The notes below the pieces were generated by a model. It was not told the DNA's origin, ran no database searches, and worked only from the letters and a program-made list of their open reading frames with translations. Shown here piece after piece: positions 3,761-63,718 of a DNA stretch of 64,000 nucleotides. Within the stretch, counting starts at the first letter, position 1. Each line of letters opens with the position of its first letter. The stretch is taken from the NCBI RefSeq assembly GCF_019649055.1, contig NW_026570254.1:124001-188000 (forward strand), written 5' to 3'. The position numbers and the translations under genes are program-made. The stretch is from Paramacrobiotus metropolitanus (lineage: Eukaryota; Tardigrada; Eutardigrada; Parachela; Macrobiotidae).

Positions 3761-6700
3761 TCAGACTGGTGACGCCGGCGGGGAACTGGTTGAGGAAACG
3801 GAATTATAGCTCGTTGGCACACCGGAATCGGTGCTAGCGGTGTCAGTGCGATGTTTAGTACGCGGGAGACCTAACCGGGTGTTCTCGTATAATCTGGGGG
3901 ACGGAGAATCACGGTCGGATAGATTATCAGGAATCTGGATAGAGGGGGCATTATGGTGAGCCATTCTGTGAGAAAGATTCGGGGATGCGGGCATCGTGCG
4001 AGATCCGTTGGGCTCCTTCTTCCACTGGCCAGTCAGCGCTCGAATCGATACTTTGTAAATTCGGAAGGGCTTTTTTGCTGTATTCGGCGCTATAAACAAT
4101 CATTTACATGAAAACTATTTGAAGTATGGTTTTCTTTCATTTTTTAGATTTTTTAAACGCTTCTAAATCTACCATACTTCAAGGAAAAGTAGTACGTACT
4201 GTATTATTGTATATCACAAAATTAATATAAGTGCATTTTACATATGTCCGAACAACAGTTCAATATAATCTTGTTCGGTTCACGTCGACGTGCCTTGGGT
4301 ACGGAAAATTAGTTGATAACTGCTATATTAGTTGTAGTTTTACGGATTATAAGCGACGTTTTGGCTTACAGTTAGGGCTTGAAAGTCCACTTCCGGATGG
4401 CGTATTTTCTTTGGAAATGAGCACTGCGCCTTCGCGACCACCCGAAGCGGTCGGCCACGGATAGAATTCGGGAGCTGTCGTGGCGAAGAATATATCGGTT
4501 TTTGAAGTGATCAGTTTCATTTCCGGCATAGTTCCGGAATATACAAGGTTTCCATTGATGAGCAGTCTTATTTCAAGCCCTTCTGCATTGAAGGCAATCA
4601 CATACGGCGATGCGCAAACTGCGAATTTGGAAACACGATATTTATTCCACGTGTATTGACACATACATTGCAGTAGTGATTCTTCGGAAGCGTATTATAA
4701 GGTGTCTGATCTCATAATCCTTTATTTGCGTTTCTCCGCATAAATATGAAATAGTGGATCGATGTAATGCTTATTTGTCATAGGTCACAACTACTCACCA
4801 ATATTTTCAGGCACAGAGCACCATTGGAAATCGAATTCCTCGGTGTTATGAGAGCCATCCAATTTTTGGAAATGGCATGTGTCTGTAACAAACGTTAATT
4901 ATTATCGAAAATACTATCTTGTGAAAATTATCAAGATTTAAATTACAATTTTTTAATCGCGAATATACTGAGAATCTGCTTATCGAAAGTTTATTTTAAG
5001 AAGTTATATTAGATGACCGCGTACATATGAGTTGCGAGTGCGAGCACCGTGTGGCATATGCGGATATGCCTATAACCTTATAATAAATATGCGGAACCTT
5101 ATAATAAATACAGCCTACGAATGATGATTTTTTGTGAAGCGAGAAGTAAGAACATGATTGACTATTGCTTTCACAATATGTGCAACTGTGTTTCTTACTG
5201 TGATAACACAGCAAAAGCTCTTTTTCGTCGTCCTCACAAACGTCCAGAGCGGCTACCAGATTGGTCTATAAGAAAGAGAAACACGTCACTCAGCTAAATG
5301 CTTGAAGCGCATAAGTATATATCGACATTACGGAGAACTGTTCTGTTTCCTGTTTACAACATCTAACAATCAATACAGCTAGCTGCACGGTGCGTACCTT
5401 TCCGGCTTCGGTTTGGTATAAACTAATGACCTCTCCCGTTCTCTCATTGATAAGATCAAAAGAATTTCGGTATCCCACGCAGACTTTGTTTTCCGGGCCA
5501 TTAACTCCGTCTATTAGCGAGATGAGGACGGGCGTTTCGTTCAGACTGAGTTCTTGGAGCGGGACAAACCCGTTAATGGTATCCTCGTGAGGACACAGCG
5601 CTGAGTACGCTATTGAGTGCTTCCACTACGAAAACACAAGCGAAAATGCACCCGTTACCGCATTGTTCGCTGCGTTGGCTGTTGCGACCGAAGTGGCTCA
5701 CCTGCATTAAGATGATCTTCCGGTTCATTGCGATGGCCATCCGGAGATAGTTTCCTCCTGGTCGATTTAGGGTAAAAAACAAGCAGCCTTTACTGCCTTC
5801 GAGTTTGTGATCTTTGCAGTCGGATTTCGTGTAAAAGGCGGTGGGTTCGGTTTCAAAGTCCTTTAAGCGGAACACGTACAGCCGGCTTTCTTTGCCTTTG
5901 TCCATGCGGGCGATGAGGATTCCGTGGTCTGCAGAAATAACCGACAGTGAACATGTATGTACAGACACTTCGGTTTCCGCTAGCAGGAAATGCTCCCATC
6001 AGTTTTTGTAGTGTTTGCCAAATATTACCTTCCACGACGGCAATCTGTCGGATTATAGCTGATCTTTCGAAAATCGGATGTGGTAGCATTCCCTCTGAAA
6101 AAATACGAACATTTTATTGGCTATCGCATGTCACGCAAGCAAATATACGGTACGACAATATGGCATGCCTCAAAGAAGCGCGATGTCGCGTGTGATGTAA
6201 TAATATGTTGGTCAGCAATGCTGACTCAGCATTATGGCCTTTCTATCATACAAACAGCGAGAGTAATGTCGAAAAAATATTTCAGGAATGCTCATTTTAT
6301 TGAGTTACGTTCTGTTATTATGCAGTACTGCATACAGCGCTTCATAATAATCTGGTTCGTGTTGCATATAAGTTAGAAAAAGTTCACTGCTCTTGCACGT
6401 GTAACAACTACCAAGTCAAGTTAGTCAAGTCTACCATTAGTAAAAACATACTAGAAATTATTAGAAATACGCATAATAAAATTAAAAGCTCATTTTGTGT
6501 TGTTTAAACGAACTCTGTGCAACCTGGCACATCTGCCGGCAATACACACGTTAAGTTTACCTTCTATGACAAATGCTCCGGCCGTCTCGGTAGCAATTAT
6601 TAACCGTTCGCTTCCCCAAGAGTCACCACAAATAATCTCATAGGCGAAGTCCGGGAAAAAACATTGTGGCTGCCAAGGCTATAAAACAAAAATTAATTAA

Positions 6701-33992: not shown

Positions 33993-36900
33993 TCATACGC
34001 TATTCTGGCTCAACAATTCTTGCAGTAGACTCTTCCCCCGATCTCCGGGTGGCTGTTGCAGATGTTGGTGGACCGGACTGTTTCCAGGCCGATTAACGCC
34101 CATTAAGTCAGGTGCTGGAGCATAGGATTGATTCATGTGCTGAGACATGACACCCTGTCCCTCTGTAGAATACATGGAGCGAAATTGCTGTTCGTTTACA
34201 TGATGTCCTTGGGATGTATGGTTGTTGCCCATTCCATTGGACGTTGCGTCGACATCGTTAAAAAAATCGTATGACGGGTAACTGTCCATGGACATTGTGG
34301 GGGCAGCCATACGCGACGCATGGTTCTGCGACGACAGGTTAGGAGCACCTGCTATCTGCATGTTCGATCGATCTCCGCCGCTGACATCCCAGCGGAATTG
34401 TTGCTGAGATGTTAAATTAGGCGGTGCACTGTTAATACCGCCATTCATCTGATATGACCCGAACGATCCATCGTCTGCAAAAAGTGATATGTTGAACACC
34501 TCTGGAGCAAACACCTTCTTACAAAATTATAACGTCGACGTAAAAACATCAGTTCGAGAAAAAATGCATATGCAACAGCGTTATCGGTTACAAATTCATT
34601 TTTTAATAACAGCTTCACGTCTGCATTATTCCAAGACTTTTAACAAAATCTACTATAACTGTGACTACAGAGGAGATGATCAAGAAATAAAGATGGCTAA
34701 AAGAACTGCTGTATACAAAAAGTCGATGACCGCTGGAAACTATAAAATTAGAAGCTATTCCTGTAGGATACGAATACCATTATAAGCTTTTCACATATAA
34801 TACGACTTCGAAACCCTCAAAAAATAAACGTTCGCTTACTGGCTCGCATGTCTTCAGTGATGTTACTGTAATTGTTCCGCATTAACTGCTGATTTTGACT
34901 CGGATTGGCCATCCGCGACTGCATTCCGGGCATAACGTTTCTTTGATACATGCCCGCGTTTCCAAAACCGTCTTGTTGCATTGTGCCCTGTTGCGAGAAC
35001 TGACTAGAAGGCATACCACCGCCTCCACCACCGGCTCCTCCTCCTCCGGATGGCGTCATTCGCGACTGCATCGTCGGTTGATTGGGATTCTGCGTCATCA
35101 TGTGCGCCGAAAGGTTGAACTGCTGTCCGTTACTCTGATTGATAAACTGCTGAGTGGAATATGGAGGCGGATTCTGCTGCTGCTGCTGTTGTGCGACAGC
35201 AGCCATGTTCATACTATTATTGGACTGTAATGGGTGGGGTGATTGGGGAGCACCGACTGCGCCCATCCCAGAGAGCTGCGACTGCTGCGGCCACATACCC
35301 GGACGCATCATTCGGCCAGACACCTGTGGATTAGGATGACGAGGACTCAAGGGTTGGGCGGGCGTCTGGACAGGAAATCGGAGGCCGGCTTGCGGCGGAG
35401 GCGAATAAGGCACTGACTGCTGGGGTGCAAACTGAGGATGATTCTGTAATAAATAATTATCATACAACGGGAAGAAAGCGTTAAGAAATAAGTGCAAATG
35501 AATGTCAACGTAACACCCACTCAGATGTTTCTCAATCGATTCATTATTTATAATAATTTGCAGAAAGTAACACCGAAGAATGTACTGTAATAGGTAGTTG
35601 TACAATAACTTACTTGTGGAACATTTTGGAATCCATTAACAGGGAAGTTGGAGCCGCTGGGACTGGGTATGGAGAGAGATCTCTGGAGGCTAGCAGGATT
35701 ATTAGACACCGGCAAACCGGGTGCCTGGCCCATACTGGCCTGACCCTGCTGCTGCGCGCGCACTTGTCGTTGCCATGCCTGCATCCGCAGTTGGGCCTTC
35801 AGGTGGTTGTTGCTTGACGTTCCCGAAGGAGGCACTGGTGAGCGGCTGGTGTTGAAATCGGAGGGCATTCCGGGTCTGGACGGTGAGTTAATCTGGTTGG
35901 GGAGCATCATGGCGTTGCCGGGCATTCGTTGCATTATCATACCACCACTATCGGTATTGTTACCATATACGTTCATTGATGTCCGCACTATCTGCTGATT
36001 CTGTACCATGGCATATCTTGGACCCTGCAGGTAAACAATTACTAACAATAAGAAAAACCAAAGAAGCAGCCAAAGACTAAAACCTGTATGAATGACACAG
36101 CCAAAAAAGACAACAAAATTGCACAACTATAAGAGAAAGACAATAACACTAGTCGCTTTACATGAACCAAGCACTACTCTGACCAGGACCTGAACTTGCT
36201 TTATATGCAAAGTTCTCATTTCGACGTTACTAAACTTTTTAAGCTGTCAGGCAGAAGAAAGTTTTCTTACCATTGCCATGGACGATGCTATACTCTGCTC
36301 TCGGTACGCTTGAGGGACCGGCTGTAACGACAGAGGCCCATTCATGGAAACATCGGCGCATAGAGCATCCCTAATGTGCGCAATGGCTTGCTGATCCGCT
36401 GCCGTCAAAACACTTCCCAAATCGCTACCACCGGGCCGCTCTTCCGATACCAAGTCTTCCAAGAGGCCCAGCACATCTTCCATGTTGTCATGAGTTCGAT
36501 TCATGCCGTCATCTCCAAATTCCCCTATCGATTCAGCCAAGCGAACTGGAGGCCTGGGTTGACCTACGCCAGGTGGGGCTAGTATCCGATTGCTCAAATC
36601 CTTTGGCAGTTTATTTTGTGGAAGATCACCGGGATTTGGTACGGGTAAGCCCCCGTCAGTCGCCTGCTGTTTAGTGGTATTCTGTAGCAGCGCAGCAAGC
36701 ATTTTATTTTTTTCAGCTAATTTGGGAGTATTGCCGGGCTCTGCCCCATCAATCTCTTCGATCTTTCTTTTCCCGGTTAACAGTGGGGCATTTTGATTCA
36801 CGTCGATGTGATTCGGTATAAATGAGTTCATCAAAGACTGTTCTTGGTACATGATGCTGGGCGATCCGTTCTCCAGACTTTCTGCAAGCAGAAGTCGCAA

Positions 36901-39900
36901 CTGTTTATTGTTTCCGTCGTCACCTGCACAGACAACCCATAAGGCTATGCTAAGTCTAATGTTTATTATTTCGATATAAAACGAAACCAAAATTTTGTCG
37001 GTTTTCAAAGCACAGTGTAAACTACCCTTGTCAATAAGATAAGGCCACAATATGGCACGCTTACTAGTTGTCTTGTCGTTCAGCAGGTGCTTCAAAACAG
37101 TATCCGGAGCCAAAGGATCGTCTTTAAGGGGAGTCAAAAGCTCTTTAAGAATATTGTGCGGATCATTCTCAGACGAATGATGGAGACCAGGTTCAAAATG
37201 TGTCCACTCAGCCAAGGAACCAGAAGTATCCGATGAAATATCACCACTACGCGCATTGGAATGGGATTCTCCAGATGACCACTGAAAAGCTGTGCTGGAT
37301 ACGGGCATGTCTTGAGATACGCCTGACTTGAGATCCTGAGCAGAGAGAGGCGACGACTTCGGGACATCAGAATCCCTAAATCAGAAAAATATTTGTAATG
37401 CCCTAATCAGAAGAGTCATTTAATAGTTAAAGGGCTTTACAGCTAGACCTCGGGTATTACGGTATCACAAGCAGGAAACATGCGATGGTCACTTTACAAG
37501 CTGATCTAAACTTTCCAGAAAATCATAAACAACTTTACTCGAGTAATACGGTAGTGTCTACTGATTTTGAGTGTCGTCATCGTTTGAATACAAGTCTAGG
37601 CTCTGGCTGATGTCACGCTCGCACTGCAGCAGAGACGAATCATGCACATAGTCTACTTGACACAATTAGGCACAAAATCCCCAAAGCGGCTGTGGTAGTC
37701 AGTAAAAATCATCCATGCAAAACAATTGCAGTTTGTGATTGCTACCGACTCGTACAAAACGGTCCTCACTTGTTGCTCAAAGTGGAGCGAAACATGAACA
37801 TCATCCGTTCAGTTTGCGACCACATTAACACCATCGTGCCAGGTTGTCCAACAACTTGTGCCAAACGATTCGAAATGTACCAAGTTGTTTCATTTGGTAT
37901 TCTAATTCTGTACATTTCCATATCGTTCAAAATATTCACTGTATCCATTTGTTCAAAAAATTAAAAACATCTAGTTATAAACGTCAGACAGTAAAACCAT
38001 TCTGAAAACTGAAAAACAAAATTTATTATTTTTAAAGCAATAAGGTTTTTAAACTACGTATCTATCGCGGAAAGCAAGTTAAGTACTGTAAATGACCAGG
38101 ATCTTAAGCAGATTACGAAATCTAACCTCTTACCCCTTGTCCCGAACTGCAATCCAGAAAATATTATTACAACACTATTCGTTTACCGAATACGCAGGAT
38201 AAACGCTCGTAAGGCTAATTCGCATCAGAAAAAGCTAAAACGCACTAGTCTGCCGTCGGAATTCAGGCAATTACATATCTACCTGTATCATGTCACCGGA
38301 AAAAAACAACAGATATACGACATACACTACGCAACAGGCAACATACAGTATCAGGCGAGTGGCGCACACTAGGGAAACTCAGCGTTTGAAAATGAATTCA
38401 CAACACAGCAAACAAATTACACAATCACACGCAGCTCGTTTAGCCTTGATTACAGCCTACATAGCTACCAAGTCGAACAGGTATGGTACATGTACACATA
38501 CTGGCATTCTACGGATGTCTATAATAATGCAGCAGCATTTTGCTAACCATTCCACCGAGCCCAGCCTAATCGACGTGCGGCAATCACTATCTCAGCGCAG
38601 GCTTGTTAACCACATCGAGCGCGTCACAAAACGGTTCTTTGAAAATGTTCTACGTCTCTCGAGTCTCGCTGGTACATTCTCCATTGCACCGTCGGTAAAT
38701 CTATATCAGGCAGCCGACAACCATACTCACATCCATAGCGCCCCAGCAATTCAATTCAATATATGTACCGTCTTCAAGACACATACTTACGTATACAACT
38801 GTTAATCACCGATCCCGTGGCCTTCTTTACCTGAATAACAATAAACTCCACCAGGCTCACCGAGGGTAACTTTAATTTCCCAACAATAAACCAAACCAAA
38901 ACATAAATATGCACTTTCAGTGCTCTGTTAAAACAGGCAGCCTTAATTAGGTGTAAACATACGAGCTTCCGGAAGCGGTCAAAGCCATACGGTGACGGCA
39001 GAATAGGTACATATACAGTACACACGTCTACTGTTAAATCGCCAACCAAAGAACTGCCGATAGGATTCTTGACTTTGACACACAGGCACTAGTAAACCTA
39101 CGGCACACTGCTCACCACGCAGCAGGTGGTACTAAAAACAGACCAACTGTTAAATCGAGAGAATTCGCCCGCAATGGAAAGTGTTTAGTCACACAGCCCA
39201 GCTCGCACGTGTTCGTAGCTGATAATCATAAATGAACCATCCGACACGACTTGCGCTAATAAACGTTCAGATATGCAGCATACAAATCAGACAAGAACGC
39301 TTCAGTTTCCATTAGGCGACACCTTGTTCAGACAATAGTAGGCACACACAATCAAACCCATATTAAGATGATGCACATGTGCTATCGAGTTTTAAACGCC
39401 AAACGAAAGATTTACGCGATATTTCCACTCCATGAATGTAAGTCCCATCCGCAAATCGATACAGTATCATACGCAGCCGTAATGCCATATGCATACAGTC
39501 ACCACCGGGTTTGTCAAATTCTGCACTGCACAAAATGCCCGCGTTTTCAGTGTATACCATCAAAGCCACTGCGACGCACAGCACTTTTACCAGCTTGGAA
39601 AACCTCAATCAATTTCCCTCAGCAACTTAACCATTTGCTAGCTCCAAAGCAATGGACATACCACAATATATATCTATACACAGTACACCCAGTTTCCAAG
39701 TTAAACACCAGTTCCAAGTCGCATGCGGAGACACGGAAACGTCAAAGTTAACCAGAATCCCTGCACCCGCCACAATCCGGAAAATCGATTCGTCCCAGTA
39801 TTTGGTATATGTACTTCGTTGTGACTTGGGCACAAGTGAAAATCAGCCTTTAAACATATAGAAATGCTTAAAGTTTTACACCTTCATGCTAATGCTGCAA

Positions 39901-45800: not shown

Positions 45801-46064
45801 AAATAATAATGTACTCGTACAAAACTTTATTAATAATACTCGTACCTATATCGTGTCAACAGCAATCAAGTGTCACAACAGAAAAAGTACATGTGTTAAT
45901 TACAAGTTGGTGTAACTTGAGGACTAAAACTCTTAAGGACTACTGAGAAAATTTAATTATGACTTAAAGTTAAAACTGAACTTGCTTGGGGAAACACAAT
46001 TTTAATCTTTTGCGCAGGAAAGTTCAACATAGAATGATGGACATCGGACAATAAGTACTGTGCA
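42803..46064. other. No supported gene; GATA-type microsatellite
   Basis: Intergenic AT-rich sequence between the fold-back element and the first retroelement fragment. A short tract of tatcta/gatag units with internal symmetry lies at 45300-45375. A minus-strand frame at about 44500-44690, ending at a donor-like gtatgt, could not be phased to any gene. Confidence 0.4.
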
Positions 46065-46700
46065 ATGTACATACTGTATTATGGCTATGTCATAATATGC
46101 GAAACTCTTTCCTGCGCGAAGTGTCATAAGCCCGTAGATGTATATGGCCACCACGGACTGTCATGCTCCTTTTCCGCTGGACGACATCCTCGGCACGGTG
46201 GGCTTAACAGCATTGTGTGCCGCTCGTTAGTTTCAGCGGGTATTCCAACAAAACTGGAACCGCATACGTCTCATATATACGTCCGGCCGCCGTCCAGACG
46301 GATGCACTACGTTTGCCTGGAAACGTGGCATCTTCTTGGCCTGGGATGTGACCTGTGTGGAACTGTCGCCTCGTCCCATATCAAGTCTACTTCGGTTTCC
46401 GCTGCATCCGCAGCAGCACAGGCGGAAGACAAAAAAACCAAGTTGTATGCGTACCTGGAGGGCCGATCCATCTTTGCGCCCCTCGCATTCGAAACTCTCG
46501 GACCTTGGGGAAAGTCGGCATCTATTTTGATAAAGGAAATCGGCAAACGATTACGGCAGCATACTGGTGAGCTGCACTCACTCGAATTCCTTCGTCAGCG
46601 TTTGTCGATTGAAATCCAAAGAGGCAACGCAGTTTCCGTACTTGTTGTAATCATATCTCTTCTGTTTATGAACTGTATCAGTATTACTGGCTTGCGCTAA
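46065..46700 (+). pseudogene. Frameshifted zinc-knuckle / restriction-like endonuclease tail of a retroelement
   Basis: The frame encodes a Cys/His knuckle (CAKCHKPVDVYGHHGLSC), then RHGGLNSIVCRSLVSAGIP and LEP. The core nuclease-like signature GRRPDG-x13-AWDVT is read only in another frame (about 46280-46368), after which the first frame resumes with VASSHIKSTSVSA, YAYLEGR, LAFETLGPWG and FLRQRLSIEIQRGNA. Two compensating indels therefore disrupt it. The order knuckle, RH, then PD-x-D matches the C-terminal CCHC plus restriction-like endonuclease of RLE-type non-LTR retrotransposons (family inference). No reverse transcriptase lies upstream, so this is a truncated dead fragment. The related copy at 49118 is intact. 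Confidence 0.65.
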
Positions 46701-48476: not shown

Positions 48477-49117
48477 GTTTTGCTTTGAATGGTGTACAAT
48501 TGTATGACGCTGCTAAAGCTTGATTCGATTTTTCCGTGCAAAGCGTTGTTTAATATACTATTTTGTATTTTGTTTGCTGTACAGTATTCGCATGCGAAAA
48601 CTTCGGACAGGGAATCGAAATCACTGACATTCTTTATGAGTTGCATTGGTATTTCTGATGCATATTTTGTGGCTGATGAGTTACACTGGGAACTGAGTAC
48701 TCGTACGGAAAGATTTACTGTGATCGCGACGTGAGAAAGTGTTTTCACCGAAAACGGAGGGAATCTATGGAGCGTCATACGACCGGTGATGACTGTGTTG
48801 TGTATATGAAAAGTTGCCTTTTCAAGAATGTACTCGTGCTCTTTTCTGTGTGTGCATCTGACCTTTTTCTCATCGAAATTTTGGAGTTGTGCCTTTTAAG
48901 TAGTGTCTTATGGTCTGTTTTTACTGGTGTGATGTACAGAGCAATCCCGGCTTCATTCCTCTCAAACAATGTTGGGTGCAAGGTTTATCTTTGCAAAAAA
49001 ATTTTGGAATCGAAGTGTGCATGAACTTGAAAACTACGGTACATAATTAGAATGGCGAGAGTTGTGAGGAAGGTTAAAAATTTCAACAGAAATAAATTTT
49101 AATCTAACATTTTAATA

Positions 49118-49690
49118 ATGGAAACTAACGGACATCACGGGTTATCCTGCAATAAGTCAACTAAGGGACGATGGGCGCGACATAAAGAAATGAACAGTAT
49201 TGCTAAGAATTGTTGCGAAAGCGCCGGTTTTCCTTGTCAGCTAGAACCGACCGGCTTATCGAGTGTGAACGGAAAAAGGCCCGACGGCATGATGCTGATC
49301 CCTGTCCGCCAAGGGAAACCACTTGTGTGGGATGTAACCAGTTGGTGTACGGTCGCGGACTCGCATGTCACCGGCAGCTCGAAGAAAGCTGGATACGTGG
49401 CTCAGCTCGCAGAAAATTCTAAGCGCCGGACATATTCGTTTGTGGAAAATGGAAACTTTTTTTATCCTTTAGTGATTGAGACGTTGGGAGTATTTGGCCC
49501 CGCTTTCCGTGAACTGTTGCATTTCATGGGCCGTAAAATTCGAGACTTAACTGGAGAAGCGCGTTCTACTGCTTTCATTAAGCAGCGTTTTAGTCTCGCC
49601 GTTGTAAAAGGAAATGCTACGGCTGTTTTGAGCACGTTACCTTTTAACCCAAGAGAAGATAGAGATTTTGGTTGTTTTTTTAATGTTTAA
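49118..49690 (+). CDS. Intact stand-alone endonuclease-like ORF of retroelement origin
   Basis: A 190-residue uninterrupted frame from ATG 49118. It is collinear with the 46 kb fragment: GHHGLSCN, RHKEMNSIAKNCCESAG, LEPTGL, then GKRPDGMMLIP-x-QGKPLVWDVTSW, AENSKRRTYSFVENG, VIETLGVFG and FIKQRFSLAVVKGNATAVL. The PD...D-V-T spacing fits a PD-(D/E)XK restriction-like nuclease core as in RLE-type LINEs (inference). The first Cys pair of the knuckle is missing because homology starts at the ATG. There are no stops or frameshifts, unlike the upstream copy. It may be a recent 5'-truncated insertion or a captured host ORF. No promoter or polyA evidence decides this. Confidence 0.6.
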   Translation: METNGHHGLSCNKSTKGRWARHKEMNSIAKNCCESAGFPCQLEPTGLSSVNGKRPDGMMLIPVRQGKPLVWDVTSWCTVADSHVTGSSKKAGYVAQLAENSKRRTYSFVENGNFFYPLVIETLGVFGPAFRELLHFMGRKIRDLTGEARSTAFIKQRFSLAVVKGNATAVLSTLPFNPREDRDFGCFFNV

Positions 49691-53434: not shown

Positions 53435-55723
53435 ATGGAATCGACATTTCCCGATCCGTTTTCCCCCCAGGTAACCATGCTATTCACAACACCTACAGTA
53501 TTACGAAGGATTTAATGGTGGTCACTGCAGAAGCGGTTGCGGAATCTGCGAGGGATTAGCCGTTCGCCATTTGGACGTGCAGCCGTTCGCGTGTCCGGAC
53601 CGTGCCTTCGGAGTTGCCTTCACTCTACACATTCCTTCAGAGTGTCTCCTCCTGTGTTTATTAGCGAGCCCATCTACAATTCCGCGGTTGGTTATTGCAG
53701 AATTTTGCCTTGTGCGTTTTTTGTTATTGTTGCGTGTTTGTCGTGAATGCAGAATCCCACATGGGAAGAGATGGACACCACAATGTTCGCTGATGCTCGT
53801 AGCACGGAGTGTGTTGTGCAGCTGTTTCTGCTGCACAATGGGGATTACTCGCCCTATAAGAAATTATGCTATTGGCAGTTAGATTTCCGGTTACTGGTGC
53901 GCATAGGAGATGCAGTGGACTCCATGGATTACGATTTCAATCCAAATACTGTGATATTTGCCTTAAAGTGTGGTGTTTATGTGCTTCCAGATTCGGTGAG
54001 TATTTTCTTTTTGGGCTTGCAGCCCCAGGAATTGTGTGCAAATAAATGGTTCAATTTTTTGGGAGTGCTGTGGGCTTTGGGACTGATTTTATATCGTCTT
54101 ATGGAATTGAATTCAGACTGCATCCACAGTTTTGCGCGGCTTCGATAGCAAATAATGAAATAGGCTTTCATCGTGCGACGAAATTACTGCTGAAAACCAG
54201 ATTCATGAATTAGAAGGTTTTTCGTGGTTTTGAAAAACAAATTCGTGAACCAACTAATTCTAGTTTGGCATCTTGTTCGTCAGCGTATCATGCGTAATAT
54301 ATGGTTTTATTTTTTAGATTCCAAAAAATTTCCGCGAAATTCCTCCGGCGCCTTCACGGACAGTTCGTCGAGCATGCCCAGTCGGTACATTGCGACAGCT
54401 CCTGAAACTTGAGAACGATTATTCTGCTATCCAAATACGCAAAAGAGACAGCTACGCTCTAGTTCAAGAGAGCACGAACGATTCAGCGCAAAGCCAGATG
54501 CTTAACCGGCAGATCGAGCTTTTCACCCAGCGAGTGGTTCATTTGAAATCCCTCCTACGTGAGCGTCGACAGGAAAATTGTAACTTGTCCTTGTCAGTGA
54601 GCGATCTAACATCCCTAAACGAACGCGTATCCGATACCCTGGAAACCAGTGTTCTTGATCTCATTTTGCATAAGCGTAATTTGACGACGGCTCGTGAGGA
54701 ACTTCTGCGAAGCAAGACAGAATGTAGTGTTTTACGCGCTGGCCTTCGCAGTCGAAGGTGTGAATTAGTGTCAGATTTGAAATTAATTTACCCGATCCAC
54801 CGCAGTCCTAGTGGTCGTGTGTTCGTATCGGGCATTTGGCTGCCTTCGGTGGACGACTATGTAAACTGTGATGATACAACGCTTTCCGCTAGCCTGGGAT
54901 ATGCGGCGCATCTGCTGGTTTTGCTCTCCAGGATCCTGAACGTTCCGCTGCGATATCCTTTGAAATTCTATTGCTCGACTTCTTCCGTAACGAACCCAGC
55001 TAGTGCCAGGATATACGATCGAGATCGCGAGTAAGTCTACAATGTTGCCAGCATCAGCTTGACCAAACAGACCATCAGTTCGCTGCTGCGATATTTTGCG
55101 ATTGCGATTTCGCCGCAAAACTGAAAGTATTCTACGGTACAATGAATGCAGCCCACGCTTTTAATGATTAGTGGATAGAGGTACTGTAGTATGTATAATA
55201 AGTACAAAGGTCTAGCAACACTTGTACTGTTTTAAATTTTGGTATAAAATCGTTGTAATGACCCGTGATTGAAAGTTTTCGCTGTTGTAGGTATCCTTTG
55301 CACCTAAAGGTCAGGGATCGCAATCGTTTCTATGAAGGAGTGTATTTGCTCAACTGTGATGTCATCCAGCTACGCTTAAATTTTGGCCTTGGGACGCGGG
55401 AAGTGAAGAACACAATTGAAAATATTCAGTCTTTGATGGTGGAGCGATTCGAAGTGCAGCCACCGCGCACACCTTCCATACGAATTCCTCCATCGCCGCT
55501 GCCGCAGGATAACAGCGCCCACTCCAGCCCCTTCACCCCCATGGTGGTCAGCAATGGTTTGGCTAGTAATGGCCACGGCGAACAGGACGAAAGCGTTCCT
55601 CCGGTCACACCAGCCATTATTTTCCCGGTGCAATCCGCTCCCGATCTGGGCCGGTTAAAAGTACCGAGCAAACCCGAAAATCCCTTTTTTATCCAAAATA
55701 GACAGTCCCGCGATGCATCGTGA
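53435..55723 (+). CDS. UVRAG: UVRAG / Vps38-type subunit of PI3-kinase complex II
   Basis: Five exons, 53435-53470, 53531-53686, 53753-53995, 54318-55030 and 55291-55723, keep frame for 526 residues (human 699, with a longer tail). UVRAG pairs with Beclin 1 in the Vps34 complex that makes PI3P on endosomes and supports endosome maturation and autophagy. The N-terminus has KRLRNLRGISR and a C2-like region with NPTWEEMD. A coiled coil (about 180-275) includes NRQIELFTQRVVHLKSLLRE. The conserved domain shows LIYPIHRSPSGRVFVSGIWL, DDTTLSASLGYAAHLLVLLS, VPLRYPLKF, YEGVYLLNCDVIQLRLNFGL and GT. The tail is Ser/Pro-rich with PPRTPSIRIPPSP. The first three exons rest on short similarity plus phase; the donor gttggt after exon 2 is weak. 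It is head-to-head with MVB12 and convergent with the zinc-finger gene. Confidence 0.88.
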
Positions 55724-56418: not shown

Positions 56419-58005
56419 TTATTTTGTGGTCAGAGATCCGTGAATATTTTCTTTATGACGCTTGAGATCGATCTTCCGCTGAAAAGCGTCACCGCATCTG
56501 TCGCAAGGAAACGGCTTATAAGACGCATGCTTTCTCATGTGAGTGATGAGATTGCTCGATTGGCTGAACGCCTTGAGACATACGACGCATTTATGCGGCT
56601 TCTCTCCTGACAAAGCAAAACGATACACGGTTAAATTACCATTAACAGTTTACAACAATAATTTCAGGAATGAAGAGTAGCAAAAACAACGATGATATAC
56701 CTGTGTGTATGTAGGTATGTTTCTTCATATCAGACTTCTGATGAAATCGTTTTCCACAGAATTCGCACGCATGAGGCCTGGTGTCGGAGTGTATCAGAAG
56801 GTGTGTGGCTAGTGTGGATGACCTTTTGAATGCTTTGCCGCAGTGCATACAGGGAAAATGGCGATCAGGACGCAGCAGAATTCCGCCTTCTTCCATTGTA
56901 CCCAGGAGATCGCCATCCATTGCCGGAAACAGTCCACGTGACATGCCGAAATGTGAGCAACCGGCCAGTTGGTTGTAGATGTTGTACAAGTTTGGATTGC
57001 CGCAGTAAGGAAAATTCACTGGTGAAGTTAACGATAAAGTGGACAACAACGATTGTCTTTCTCTCTGCATCCAGAAAAACCACATTGGCAAAGTATCTGT
57101 AATAATAACCAAATACTACATAGTAAAGTACCTGGAAGTAAAAAACTGGTGTAATTAATAAGCTGCAGTTCCGCACTCCACCAATATTGTCATTCTCACC
57201 GTATAATTCTAATAATTATATATCTGTCGGACATATCGCAAATGTAATTGCCGGTAAAAGCGAACGTGCAGAAGAAAAAATCGTAAAAATTGTAAAAGAA
57301 AAGTCACTACAGAATCTAAAAGGTAAGAGACAGAGATATATCGATTGGGTTGCAGAGGTTATAAGGACGGTATCAATAATTTATAAAGATGTAACCATAC
57401 TTTAACGATTACTTTAAGAAGATTTTTGTATCATCTCTCAAAACGTTGTGTTGTTTACTTATCGGCCTAAAATAAACATCACCAGTATCACGTACGTATC
57501 GGCATTATTGGCGTAGCCTCGTACAAGTACTATAAAATTTCTTTAGTTGGATGTGACAATCCATGACCTTTTTCCATAATTAAACTTACTGCGAAATCCT
57601 TCGCCCACTGTAGCAGCGTTAACGTTTGGACATTCCTGCAGTGGCTTAGGGACGTTGCAAGCAGGAATACGGGGGACTGTAAAAGCAAAAGCAAATAACA
57701 TTTTGAAAACTGAGAAAGTTTGAAAAAAGTCATTCTCCTGAGGTCATCTTTGTAGTGCATGACAGCAGAAGCCGAACCAAAGTGATGGCTGCTAAAGGTC
57801 ACGCATGGCGGCTACCACTGTTTCAGTGGTATATATTCAGTATTGTTTGATAACAAGGCAGAACATATTTTATACCTGGGCACAAAAGAGTTCGCGAAAG
57901 GGCATTTGGTGAAGATGATATTCTACGAAAGCCGCGTCGGCTAAAATCCAGGGGGCATTCATCCCAGTTAAACAGCTGAGAAGAGCTCGGAGCAATTTTT
58001 TGCAT
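56419..58005 (-). CDS. GFI1/Senseless-type C2H2 zinc-finger repressor
   Basis: Four exons, 58005-57876, 57676-57590, 57096-56701 and 56606-56419, join in phase for 266 residues. Four C2H2 fingers lie at about 155-260: [60 protein letters not shown] and [20 protein letters not shown], with HSDTRP and HTGEKP linkers. The fingers are nearly diagnostic for GFI1, GFI1B and Senseless, which bind AATC-core sites. Four fingers match Senseless rather than the six of vertebrate GFI1. The N-terminus ([18 protein letters not shown]) has no SNAG repressor motif but carries PLDFS, close to the CtBP-binding PLDLS (inference). These factors control sensory-neuron and blood-cell fates in other animals. The stop codon lies inside an AATAAA. 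The two upstream exons are less certain than the finger exons. Confidence 0.88.
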
Positions 58006-60136: not shown

Positions 60137-63100
60137 TTAAACATTCGCCATATACGCATCCTCCGCGAGCATATCTAAAATCCAGGCAGAATAAGATTTT
60201 ATGCGGGTATAAATTGCAGGTGTGGGACGGGCAAAGTTGCGACGGCATTCGGCGGCGCTGTAACTGTAAATGCCGGCGAGGAAATAACGATCATTTCGCT
60301 GGAACACTAAAGGTGCTCCGAGATCTCCATCAGTCTGAAACGAAATCAGTCAGATTAATAATAATCGTTCTACCTTAATAAATTAGAATTTTATTTGCTG
60401 CTTTTACAAATAGGGTAATAACGTGCAATTAAAAATTGTTTTGCAGCAAAGTAATAGTACAAACTTTTAAAATTAACTGTAAATATTTCGCGCAGATAAG
60501 GATACTAGTCAGACATGCCTCGCAAGGAGCTGGTGTTGTACACAAATATTTGTCGCTCTTGAGGTTGTGTTGCACTGATTCGTTGCAGTACGACAAGTCC
60601 AACATTTCCACTTCTGCGGTGTCCGCAAAAATTGTGGCATTTGAAAACGGCTCTGGAATAGTAATAAAACACTGGTTATTGCTGATTACATATACTCCAT
60701 ACACAGGTCAGTGCATGTAGACAACTGATTTCAGCCTTTTTCTTTACCTAAAAGTGGATCTCGTGTTGGCGCTGGAACAGTAAGCGGCACATGACGAAAG
60801 CCGCCAAACACGCCTTTAGTGCCATTTCGCAAAAAGTCTTCATCGTCTTCTAACAAGCACGCAGGAATTCGTGCAGGATTATAATCCGGATGGGAAGCGA
60901 ACTTGATCAGCGCGATGTCCACTTCTATTGTATTCGGGGAGAAGTCGGGATGTAAGGAAATTTTTGTAGGTTTGACCTGGTGCATTAATAAATAAGTATC
61001 AATCGCACGAGATCTAGCACGCAGGGTTAATTTACGAAGCCATTCACTTGCAGCACCGTAAAAAGCAAAATCGAAGGATCAGATAGTTTTTATGTATCAT
61101 CGAAGCAAAATGACCAACCTCAGTTTTAATTGGCCATGAGCGGAAATCCAACACTGGCGAATCCAACTGAATAATCATATCTCTGATATCCGAAAACCTA
61201 TCGGCATATAAACCGTAATATACCGCAAAATACTCGAGCCGTACGTGTCAAAGCTGGGCAAAAGCGCTATTAGACTGTGTCAACAATAAAACTGGTTAAT
61301 TACTTCGAAGCACACAGCGCGGAAGTTAGTATCCAACCAGGATGGATCAGAGTTCCGGAGCAAGCCAGTCGGCGAGTGTGGGACAGGATAGCGGCGTGCC
61401 ATGGATGCAGTGATCGCGGTCGAAAACCGAGTTCTGCCGGCAAGTTCGGCGAGGGATATTCATGACCACAAGCAACTGCAAAATTACTGCGTAATTTTTG
61501 ATAGAATGATACGAAGAGAATTCAGTGCAAAATATTAAGCCACCAACATAAATTATGGCACATGAAGGGATCCTCGTCGGCACCGCTTGGGCAATCAGGT
61601 CGGCTATCACAGACCTATTATAATAATATAATAGTATAATAATATTACATTAGTAATAATTATCGCACTCAATGCACCTTTTGCTGGTCAATGCACATTG
61701 CATCAGCTTCACAGTAAAATTTCTTTTGTCCACAGCGATCGCCTAAACAAAATATCTAGACTAATAACATGCAAATCAGTGTTCGAAGGTTACGGCACTA
61801 GGCTTTGCTAAATAGTTTACTGTTTAACAAGCGTTTCTGTTTAACAAACGTTTTCAAGAAAGATCCAGCTTTGCAGCACCCACCATAAACAACCAGATCA
61901 AATCCAGTTCCTCCTATGGAATTGTCAGTAACAAAGGTCAACACAACAGTAGGACAAAAACTCCTGTAATGGACGGGGCCGTCATGTCCGCAGTATTTCT
62001 TTGGTCTTTCGTTATTGCATGCATCGTTGATTTCAAGATAATCGAATTTGCAGTTTGCACTGCGTTCAATACCGAAGTTGCCGGTGTTTATGCGAATAAC
62101 ATTTGCAGTGTTATTGTTTCGCAGCACCATTTCGCAACGGAGGTTGTTATCGTATGTCTCGTTATCAGGACTTGGAGGCCAACGCAGGAAGTGTGGCTCG
62201 AAGTCTTCCAGCATTAGTGTGGTTGAGCAAGCCGGATCCGGTTCGGCCATCGGTACCTGACATGCGTACAGGCAATGTCATTCACTAATTCCTACTGTTA
62301 TTAATAATTTAAATAACTCAAACTGATAAAGAAAAAGTCTTGTTAAGTCCTGGCGCTGTAAAACACGCTTATGCAATTTCTGTATTACCATGTCTTCTTC
62401 CCGGAAAAACAGCGCAAAGCCTTCTCTTTGGTTGCGATTATCGGAACAAAATTCCACCACGGCTCGATTCGATCGAGTAATATGGTCCGGAGGAGCATGG
62501 CTTCCGCAGAATGGACCTTTATTACGTAAGGCAGTTTAGCATGCGAGCATAGCAGCGGAAAGACTGGTTGTGCGCTTATGACCTTTAAAGTCAAAGTTGG
62601 TTTCACCACAAGGTTCGAATGTCGCTAGCTGTTCGTCACTCAAGCCTTCGAAAACTACAAGATTAACAAAAAACAGGTCATTTCATACACTTTGTAAGCG
62701 AGATTCAAAGTACTGTTGACAGAAATTTTAAACGAAATTTAAACAGGCTACGAATGGTCGTGATTTTCCAGTACCTCTTACATAATCCAGATTGCATCTT
62801 TCGGCCGCTTCGATAAAGAAATCCGCGTCATAATGGAGCAGAAGCCCCTAAAAAATTCAAACATCCTTAAAGTCGCTAGATTCTGGTGGTTGCTGTTAAT
62901 TTGCTTAGAATAGATTCTAGGTCTGTACTCTGTACTTTATTCGTAGCGTTCGTAGTAAAATCATCATTATTATTATTATTAGCTCAAGGAAGCCGCTGAA
63001 GCAGTTTATAATATAGACTGTGTTAACGGTTTTTTCTACGAGTAAATTGCCAAAATTCATGGCTTACCTTAGTGCTGTTCTCCGACTCCAAAACCCACCG

Positions 63101-63718
63101 GCATTTGGAATCAGAAAGGTACGCAGCATTAGGATAATGAGGATCACTCCAAATGCCTCCAGTAGCATTCCGGACATAAGCTGTACCGCTACAACCATCT
63201 AAAAATCGTCGCCGTTATTAACTGCCACTGCGAACCAGGACAAATACTTTTAATACTAAAACTATACTGTTAAAAAATGTTTACCGATGTAATCAATGAT
63301 TGGAGCTAGCGTAGGATAGACATAGGAATCGTTTTTTGGGCACTCGGCGAAATGGATGTCATCAATGGCTGCAGGTACACATAAACAAGTTTTCAAAGTC
63401 TAAACCAAGGAAAAGCAAATTAGTATGTTTATACGCACCAATATCCGAGCGGAAGCTGATCTCTCCAACCCCCAACGTAGCTTCAAATTCCATCTGAGAA
63501 GTGCAAGTATCAAAATAAAATTTGTGGATTATTCGCAAGCCATTAATGTACAAAAATTTCGTACCGTAAATTCCTCCCATTCATACTGCGCCCGATTTCG
63601 GAACTGTCGCCATCGATCTCCTTGATCACCGGAAACCGAGTGGACAATTTCGCTACATGCTGGCCAGCGTAACGAATTTTTATCGTTGTCGGTGCAGTTG
63701 GACGGAGTGACGGTTACG
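60137..63718 (-). CDS. MAM-CUB-CUB-LDLa serine-protease homologue, 5' end outside window
   Basis: Fifteen exons join in phase: 63718-63565, 63493-63439, 63368-63285, 63198-63068, 62847-62775, 62654-62583, 62516-62389, 62256-61884, 61742-61678, 61614-61548, 61475-61304, 61182-61119, 60976-60748, 60652-60519, 60334-60137, giving 665 residues of a longer extracellular protein. Domains in order are the C-terminal half of MAM (GDQGDRWRQF, RSDIAIDDIHFAECP), CUB (99-230; GCSGTAYVRNATGG, GFALFF), CUB (233-356; NCKFDYLEI, GGTGFDLVVYG), a six-Cys LDLa (358-396; CDSRPDCPSGADE) and an S1 trypsin fold (401-665). In the S1 fold the catalytic Asp is kept (DIALIKF), but the His motif reads TSALC and the Ser motif GDLGAP, and there is no IVGG activation site. 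It is therefore predicted to be non-catalytic, a scaffold or binding protein. Junction 60519/60334 uses a GC donor. Confidence 0.88.

Follow-up and report, generated by a model that had tools for sequence, protein, structure and literature searches.

A MAM-CUB-CUB-LDLa mosaic gene with a putatively non-catalytic S1 domain in the tardigrade Paramacrobiotus metropolitanus

Results

The window analysed here is a continuous stretch of 64,000 nucleotides of the Paramacrobiotus metropolitanus genome, and a mosaic gene with MAM, CUB, LDLa and S1 modules lies near its end on the minus strand. Its coding model comprises 15 exons running from 63718 down to 60137, encodes 657 residues in a consistent reading frame and ends in a TAA stop at 60139-60137, while the gene itself extends past the window end (coordinate 64000), with its 5' end, any signal peptide or membrane anchor and the first part of MAM outside. 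Exon edges were set by splice dinucleotides and phase after the three frames had been read by eye, and splice sites were picked to match homology, thus phase consistency alone is no independent proof of the model, and that proof comes from the domain scores. The 14 introns, of 63-220 bases, all agree in phase, with 13 GT-AG and one GC-AG; 13 would place a stop in frame if left unspliced, and the remaining one, of 70 bases, would shift the frame. The G+C content is 48.0% in exons and 34.2% in introns. Rfam and tRNA scans gave no matches.

The sole GC-AG intron (60518-60335, donor GAG^GCATGT) directly precedes the exon carrying the Ser motif. An alternative phase-0 donor at 60464, which scores 6 of 9 consensus positions, the same as the chosen GC donor, was set aside; it would add 18 intron-like residues and two cysteines, with GDLGAP unaltered. 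Another phase-0 candidate of equal score, at 60422, was rejected as lying past an in-frame stop. Two exon edges have phase-compatible alternatives, and neither these nor the GC donor affect the Leu-Asp-Leu reading described below.

The initial annotation had described the region ahead of the S1 domain as MAM-CUB-CUB-LDLa, of which the CUB-CUB-LDLa part was recovered and MAM was seen as its C-terminal part only. The MAM exons are 63565-63718 (C-terminal part, from the model, with the Pfam score below cut-off and further upstream exons presumably outside the window), 63439-63493, and 63285-63368, which holds the MAM end (AIDDIHFAEC) and a linker, the latter two resting on the model and Pfam. The Pfam MAM match covers profile positions 102-157 of 158 at 19.7 bits, below the curated cut-off of 26.4, and is partial, the gene continuing beyond the window. 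CUB1 is encoded by exons 63068-63198, 62775-62847, 62607-62654 and 62389-62516, the last containing its end, and CUB2 lies entirely in exon 61884-62256, all of them backed by the model, Pfam and CUB alignment; the first and second halves of LDLa lie in exons 61678-61742 and 61548-61614, backed by the model, Pfam and the LDLa residues. Pfam returned CUB at 6.2e-31 in two stretches and LDLa at 1.4e-6 in one repeat, and a PDB sequence search with the stem gave matches to cubilin at 2e-24 and to neuropilin at 4.1e-18. Residues 25-215, spanning MAM and CUB1, matched the enteropeptidase heavy chain (8h3s) as a single stretch with an E of 6.1e-5.

CUB1 shares E, D and SDN with MASP-1 at the aligned positions, E, D and TD of CUB2 are shared with cubilin, and LDLa keeps its six cysteines and the D..DC...DE pattern; we take the E/D/D of both CUBs and the LDLa pattern to be calcium ligands. 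The number of cysteines is even in each module (six in CUB1, six in CUB2, six in LDLa and eight in S1), and the model protein has nine N-glycosylation sequons, which together with the module types suggests an extracellular protein. As a side observation, CUB domains usually have four cysteines, against six in both CUBs here, and the extra pair is placed differently in CUB1 (62389-63198, minus) and CUB2 (61884-62256, minus).

The interval 60137-61475, to which the initial annotation had assigned a trypsin fold, coincides exactly with the S1 exons, the first beginning at 61475 and the TAA ending at 60137. Five exons make up this domain: 61304-61475, with the linker Cys, TSALC and no activation site; 61119-61182, drawn from the model and with an alternative phase-compatible start, seen by eye, that adds five residues; 60748-60976, with Asp102 in VDIALI; 60519-60652, resting on the model and donor scoring and followed by the GC-AG intron; and 60137-60334, with GDLGAP, the C-terminal helix and the TAA stop. 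The first, third and fifth rest on the model, alignment and a codon check. The match to Pfam Trypsin is significant for an S1A-fold domain (1.6e-19, profile 11-220 of 220), and 435 distinct PDB sequences matched S1 up to E 0.001; among the best 60 of these 435, the first was the activated protein C heavy chain (about 2e-19), followed by tryptases, thrombin, chymotrypsin, plasminogen and others. Both Pfam and the PDB sequence search place the homology over nearly the whole domain.

S1 comprises 265 codons without a stop and has eight cysteines, six of which fall, in the alignment, on cysteines 42, 58, 122, 168, 182 and 220 of protein C; this numbering, with 191, 216, 226, 189-191 and Gly193 used here, is the one that we take to apply to protein C. 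In the same alignment a Thr stands opposite Cys191, with a Cys two residues earlier, thus the 191-220 disulphide is uncertain. The first S1 cysteine, in our reading Cys1, lies ahead of the part that aligns.

Alignment with protein C bore out the lesions of the active site reported by the initial annotation. TSALC stands in place of TAAHC, His57 being replaced by Leu (codon CTG, 61317-61315, minus), and GDLGAP in place of GDSGGP, Ser195 being replaced by Leu (codon CTC, 60322-60320, minus), while the Asp loop is intact, with Asp102 in VDIALI (codon GAC, 60919-60917, minus). The RIVGG-like cleavage site is likewise absent, PAELGFRPRSLHPW standing where cleavage between R and IVGG would be expected, and the activation region reads ACGHEYPSPNLPAELGFRPRSLHPW, without a basic residue followed by I/V-V-G-G. 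The triad is thus Leu57, Asp102 and Leu195, and with S1 similarity and two of the three triad residues missing the domain belongs with the serine protease homologues (SPHs) and not with the active S1A peptidases. Both Leu codons are at least two bases away from every His or Ser codon, thus one sequencing error explains neither. Judged from the sequence, a loss of catalysis in the S1 domain would fit the evidence.

We joined GT or GC donors to AG acceptors between 64000 and 59500, allowing introns of 40-1500 bases, and sought [ST][AGSV][AGS]HC, GDSG[GSA][PS] and [RK][IV][VI]GG across the junctions. None of the 27,780 donor-acceptor pairs created a His, Ser or activation motif, so neither a TAAHC- nor a GDSGGP-type motif can be brought back by other splicing of this region; two control stretches of the window yielded zero as well (0/10,998 and 0/17,760), thus the null count is unsurprising by itself, though a rescue by splicing is excluded. 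Outside the gene, the motifs that a six-frame scan of the window returned were AAHC (17971, minus), VLGG and VIGG (1969 and 2374, respectively, both plus) and GDWGAP (35238, plus), none of them within 20 kb of the gene and none with S1 sequence at its site by tblastn. The same tblastn search, with the model protein against the whole window, found no second or active S1 copy or paralogue; beyond its own exons, CUB1 and CUB2 were weakly similar to each other (6.1e-5), and four other matches were at chance level (E 1.4 to 4.4). No relatives of S1 and CUB2 were found in IMG/VR, nor of S1 in GTDB genomes, which is what one would expect of an animal gene.

Discussion

The gene resembles enteropeptidase (TMPRSS15) in combining MAM, CUB and LDLa with a C-terminal S1 domain. 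Enteropeptidase has an N-terminal membrane anchor and SEA, a part of the protein that in our gene would fall outside the window, and the order MAM-CUB-LDLa-SRCR-S1, whereas here a second CUB takes the place of SRCR, for which Pfam gave no match in the visible part of the protein, the activation site is absent and the triad is dead. In addition, among the best 60 of the 435 PDB matches, the S1 domain scores best against protein C and not against enteropeptidase. As in the clip-domain homologues masquerade and SPCLIP1, the S1 domain is non-catalytic, but the clip family was not among the Pfam matches up to E 1 for the visible part of the protein.

SPHs are defined in the honey bee study by S1 similarity with at least one triad residue missing (PMC1761132). 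Table 1 of that study gives 44 SPs and 13 SPHs, and among the latter both His and Ser are lost in SPH54 (ASYSC, NDEGAP; EGF, 5 LDLa, SRCR) and in SPH56 (TTASC, EFAGSP; SEA, frizzled, 2 LDLa), while four of six clip homologues retain the His motif, with Ser replaced by Gly (PMC1761132). In Tenebrio (mealworm), 125 SPHs are counted among 269 sequences, including SerPH364 with an S-D-E site and SEA, EGF, LDL and SRCR (PMC11172050), and in a planthopper the count given is 25 SPHs of 90 genes (PMC4085338). Going by these tabulated entries, SPH54, SPH56 and SerPH364 share with our gene the replacement of both His and Ser and the presence of LDLa upstream in a long mosaic, and SPH54 and SerPH364 also keep Asp, as here, whereas the Asp motif is lost in SPH56. 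Unlike our gene, the three carry SEA, EGF, SRCR or frizzled, with no MAM or CUB in their tabulated entries, and their replacing residues as given there are not Leu-Leu.

A CUB and LDLa arrangement ahead of S1 is shared with matriptase and with Schistosoma SmSP1, described as CUB-LDLa-S1, whose triad is given as intact whereas that of our gene is dead; two further Schistosoma genes are noted in the same account as lacking the catalytic Ser or His (PMC3967958). Drosophila Notopleural is described as a functional homologue of matriptase, and its catalytic-Ser mutant fails to rescue (PMC6331135). Since non-clip mosaics with both residues dead are already tabulated in insects (PMC1761132, PMC11172050, as far as their tables go), the weight that the initial annotation had placed on the architecture as a distinguishing mark has to be reduced. 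Non-catalytic S1 mosaics are thus a known class, while the combination of MAM-CUB-CUB-LDLa with a dead S1 may be new, no record of it having been found in the portions of the open-access literature that the search covered.

We consider it probable that the locus is a functional gene for an extracellular MAM-CUB-CUB-LDLa-S1 mosaic in which the C-terminal S1 domain is a pseudoprotease that works by binding and not by catalysis. The binding or assembly role put forward in the initial annotation fits the open frame, the S1 cysteines and the CUB and LDLa residues, with the exception of its appeal to the architecture as a special feature; we infer a putative role of this kind purely from the types of module present. 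The protein would be exported, and its S1 domain would not be activated by cleavage. The CUB, LDLa and MAM modules might hold ligands or cell-surface partners, with S1 tied to the stem, probably via a disulphide of the Cys1-Cys122 type, and the S1 fold could then offer an additional protein-binding surface, other proteins using it as a scaffold or cofactor.

A decoy or substrate trap, in which the dead active-site cleft would bind and shield a protease substrate or inhibitor, is a different use of the same fold. Asp102 and Gly193 are kept, and over its C-terminal half S1 aligns with active proteases, but in the one pairwise alignment with protein C, Ser and Ala occupy the places of the pocket-wall glycines 216 and 226 and there is a shift in the 189-191 region, and the usual new N-terminus cannot activate the S1 domain; we therefore regard a decoy as unlikely. 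Because of the altered glycines 216 and 226, a trap gripping its substrate in the P1 pocket would be less likely than binding via exposed loops.

The lesions could also be those of a decaying pseudogene or of a relaxed domain, catalysis having gone as the S1 exon set was no longer needed, and the loss of both catalytic residues and of the activation site, the altered pocket, the shifted place of Cys191 and the one non-canonical splice donor all point in that direction. We simulated neutral substitution with the 265 S1 codons of today as the starting sequence, in 400 runs per distance, assuming neutrality at both catalytic codons and scoring base changes and not the exact replacements. At d = 0.3 substitutions per site, 4/400 runs had at least two bases changed in each of the two catalytic codons, while the 265 codons acquired a mean of 6.0 stops, no run (0/400) was free of stops and 3.9 of the 8 cysteines were left. 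At d = 0.2 both codons were changed in 2/400 runs, with 4/400 stop-free and a mean of 4.5 stops. A recent loss of constraint is compatible with the 96/400 stop-free runs at d = 0.05, but set against the open frame and eight cysteines observed, the simulation makes a long neutral decay of the S1 domain unlikely, and decay or relaxation in general is in our view quite improbable. The absence of a stop and the eight cysteines, compared with simulated decay, suggest that the rest of S1 was kept under constraint while its site changed. In our reading the S1 domain is maintained and serves in binding or assembly, without catalysis, the constraint being argued from the simulation on a single sequence.

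HGF is a precedent for a dead S1 fold acting as a receptor ligand in a mosaic protein, and in our gene too a dead S1 fold could engage a receptor while other parts localise the protein. However, Pfam gave neither a kringle nor a PAN match in the visible part, and the activation cleavage site is absent here whereas HGF requires cleavage, which makes this reading very doubtful. Finally, it is most improbable that the gene really encodes an active protease, obscured by a sequencing, assembly or gene-model error. The GC donor, the two exon edges that can be moved and the reliance on a single assembly leave some room for it, but two base errors would be needed at each of two separate codons whose flanking residues align well, the activation site is lost too, and no tested junction brings the motifs back.

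Returning to the pseudoprotease reading, we offer tentatively, as a possibility below even chance, that, in one animal lineage, catalysis, pocket and activation disappeared jointly from an enteropeptidase-type mosaic and this mosaic became a fixed extracellular adaptor, with Leu-Asp-Leu lying within a conserved binding surface. The gene would add a well-supported case in which a protease fold has probably become a binding module within a CUB/LDLa/MAM mosaic, and if orthologues fix Leu-Asp-Leu, it would offer a clear-cut system for asking at what point, and for what reason, a catalytic centre is exchanged while the remaining mosaic is retained.

Neighbouring sequences

The neighbouring zinc-finger, Vps38/ATG14-type and CNH-domain genes, the domain repertoire and the introns would suit an animal source. 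Downstream of the mosaic gene and on the same strand, C2H2 zinc-finger ORFs (Pfam zf-C2H2) occupy 56419-57115 (minus), with fingers that we take to resemble GFI1/senseless. On the plus strand, 54318-55031 matches Pfam ATG14/Vps38 (2e-10) and presumably belongs to a UVRAG-type gene, and the next ORF, 55262-55720 (plus), has no Pfam match. Two further plus-strand ORFs, 46038-46697 and 49103-49687, share similar HHGLSC, GR..RH, RPDG and WDVT motifs without a Pfam match, and we assume them to be retroelement remnants. Long Gln/Pro/Met-rich ORFs cover 33996-37380 (minus), where 36250-37380 has no Pfam match, and these might, on our assumption, form a p160-type coactivator tail. Near the other end of the window, the minus-strand ORF 4350-4694 has a weak CNH match (profile 213-250, 0.0033, below the curated cut-off) and ORF 5576-5998 (minus) matches part of the CNH domain (profile 35-112, 2.1e-8); 4350-5998 (minus) is perhaps the C-terminus of a Ste20-like kinase.
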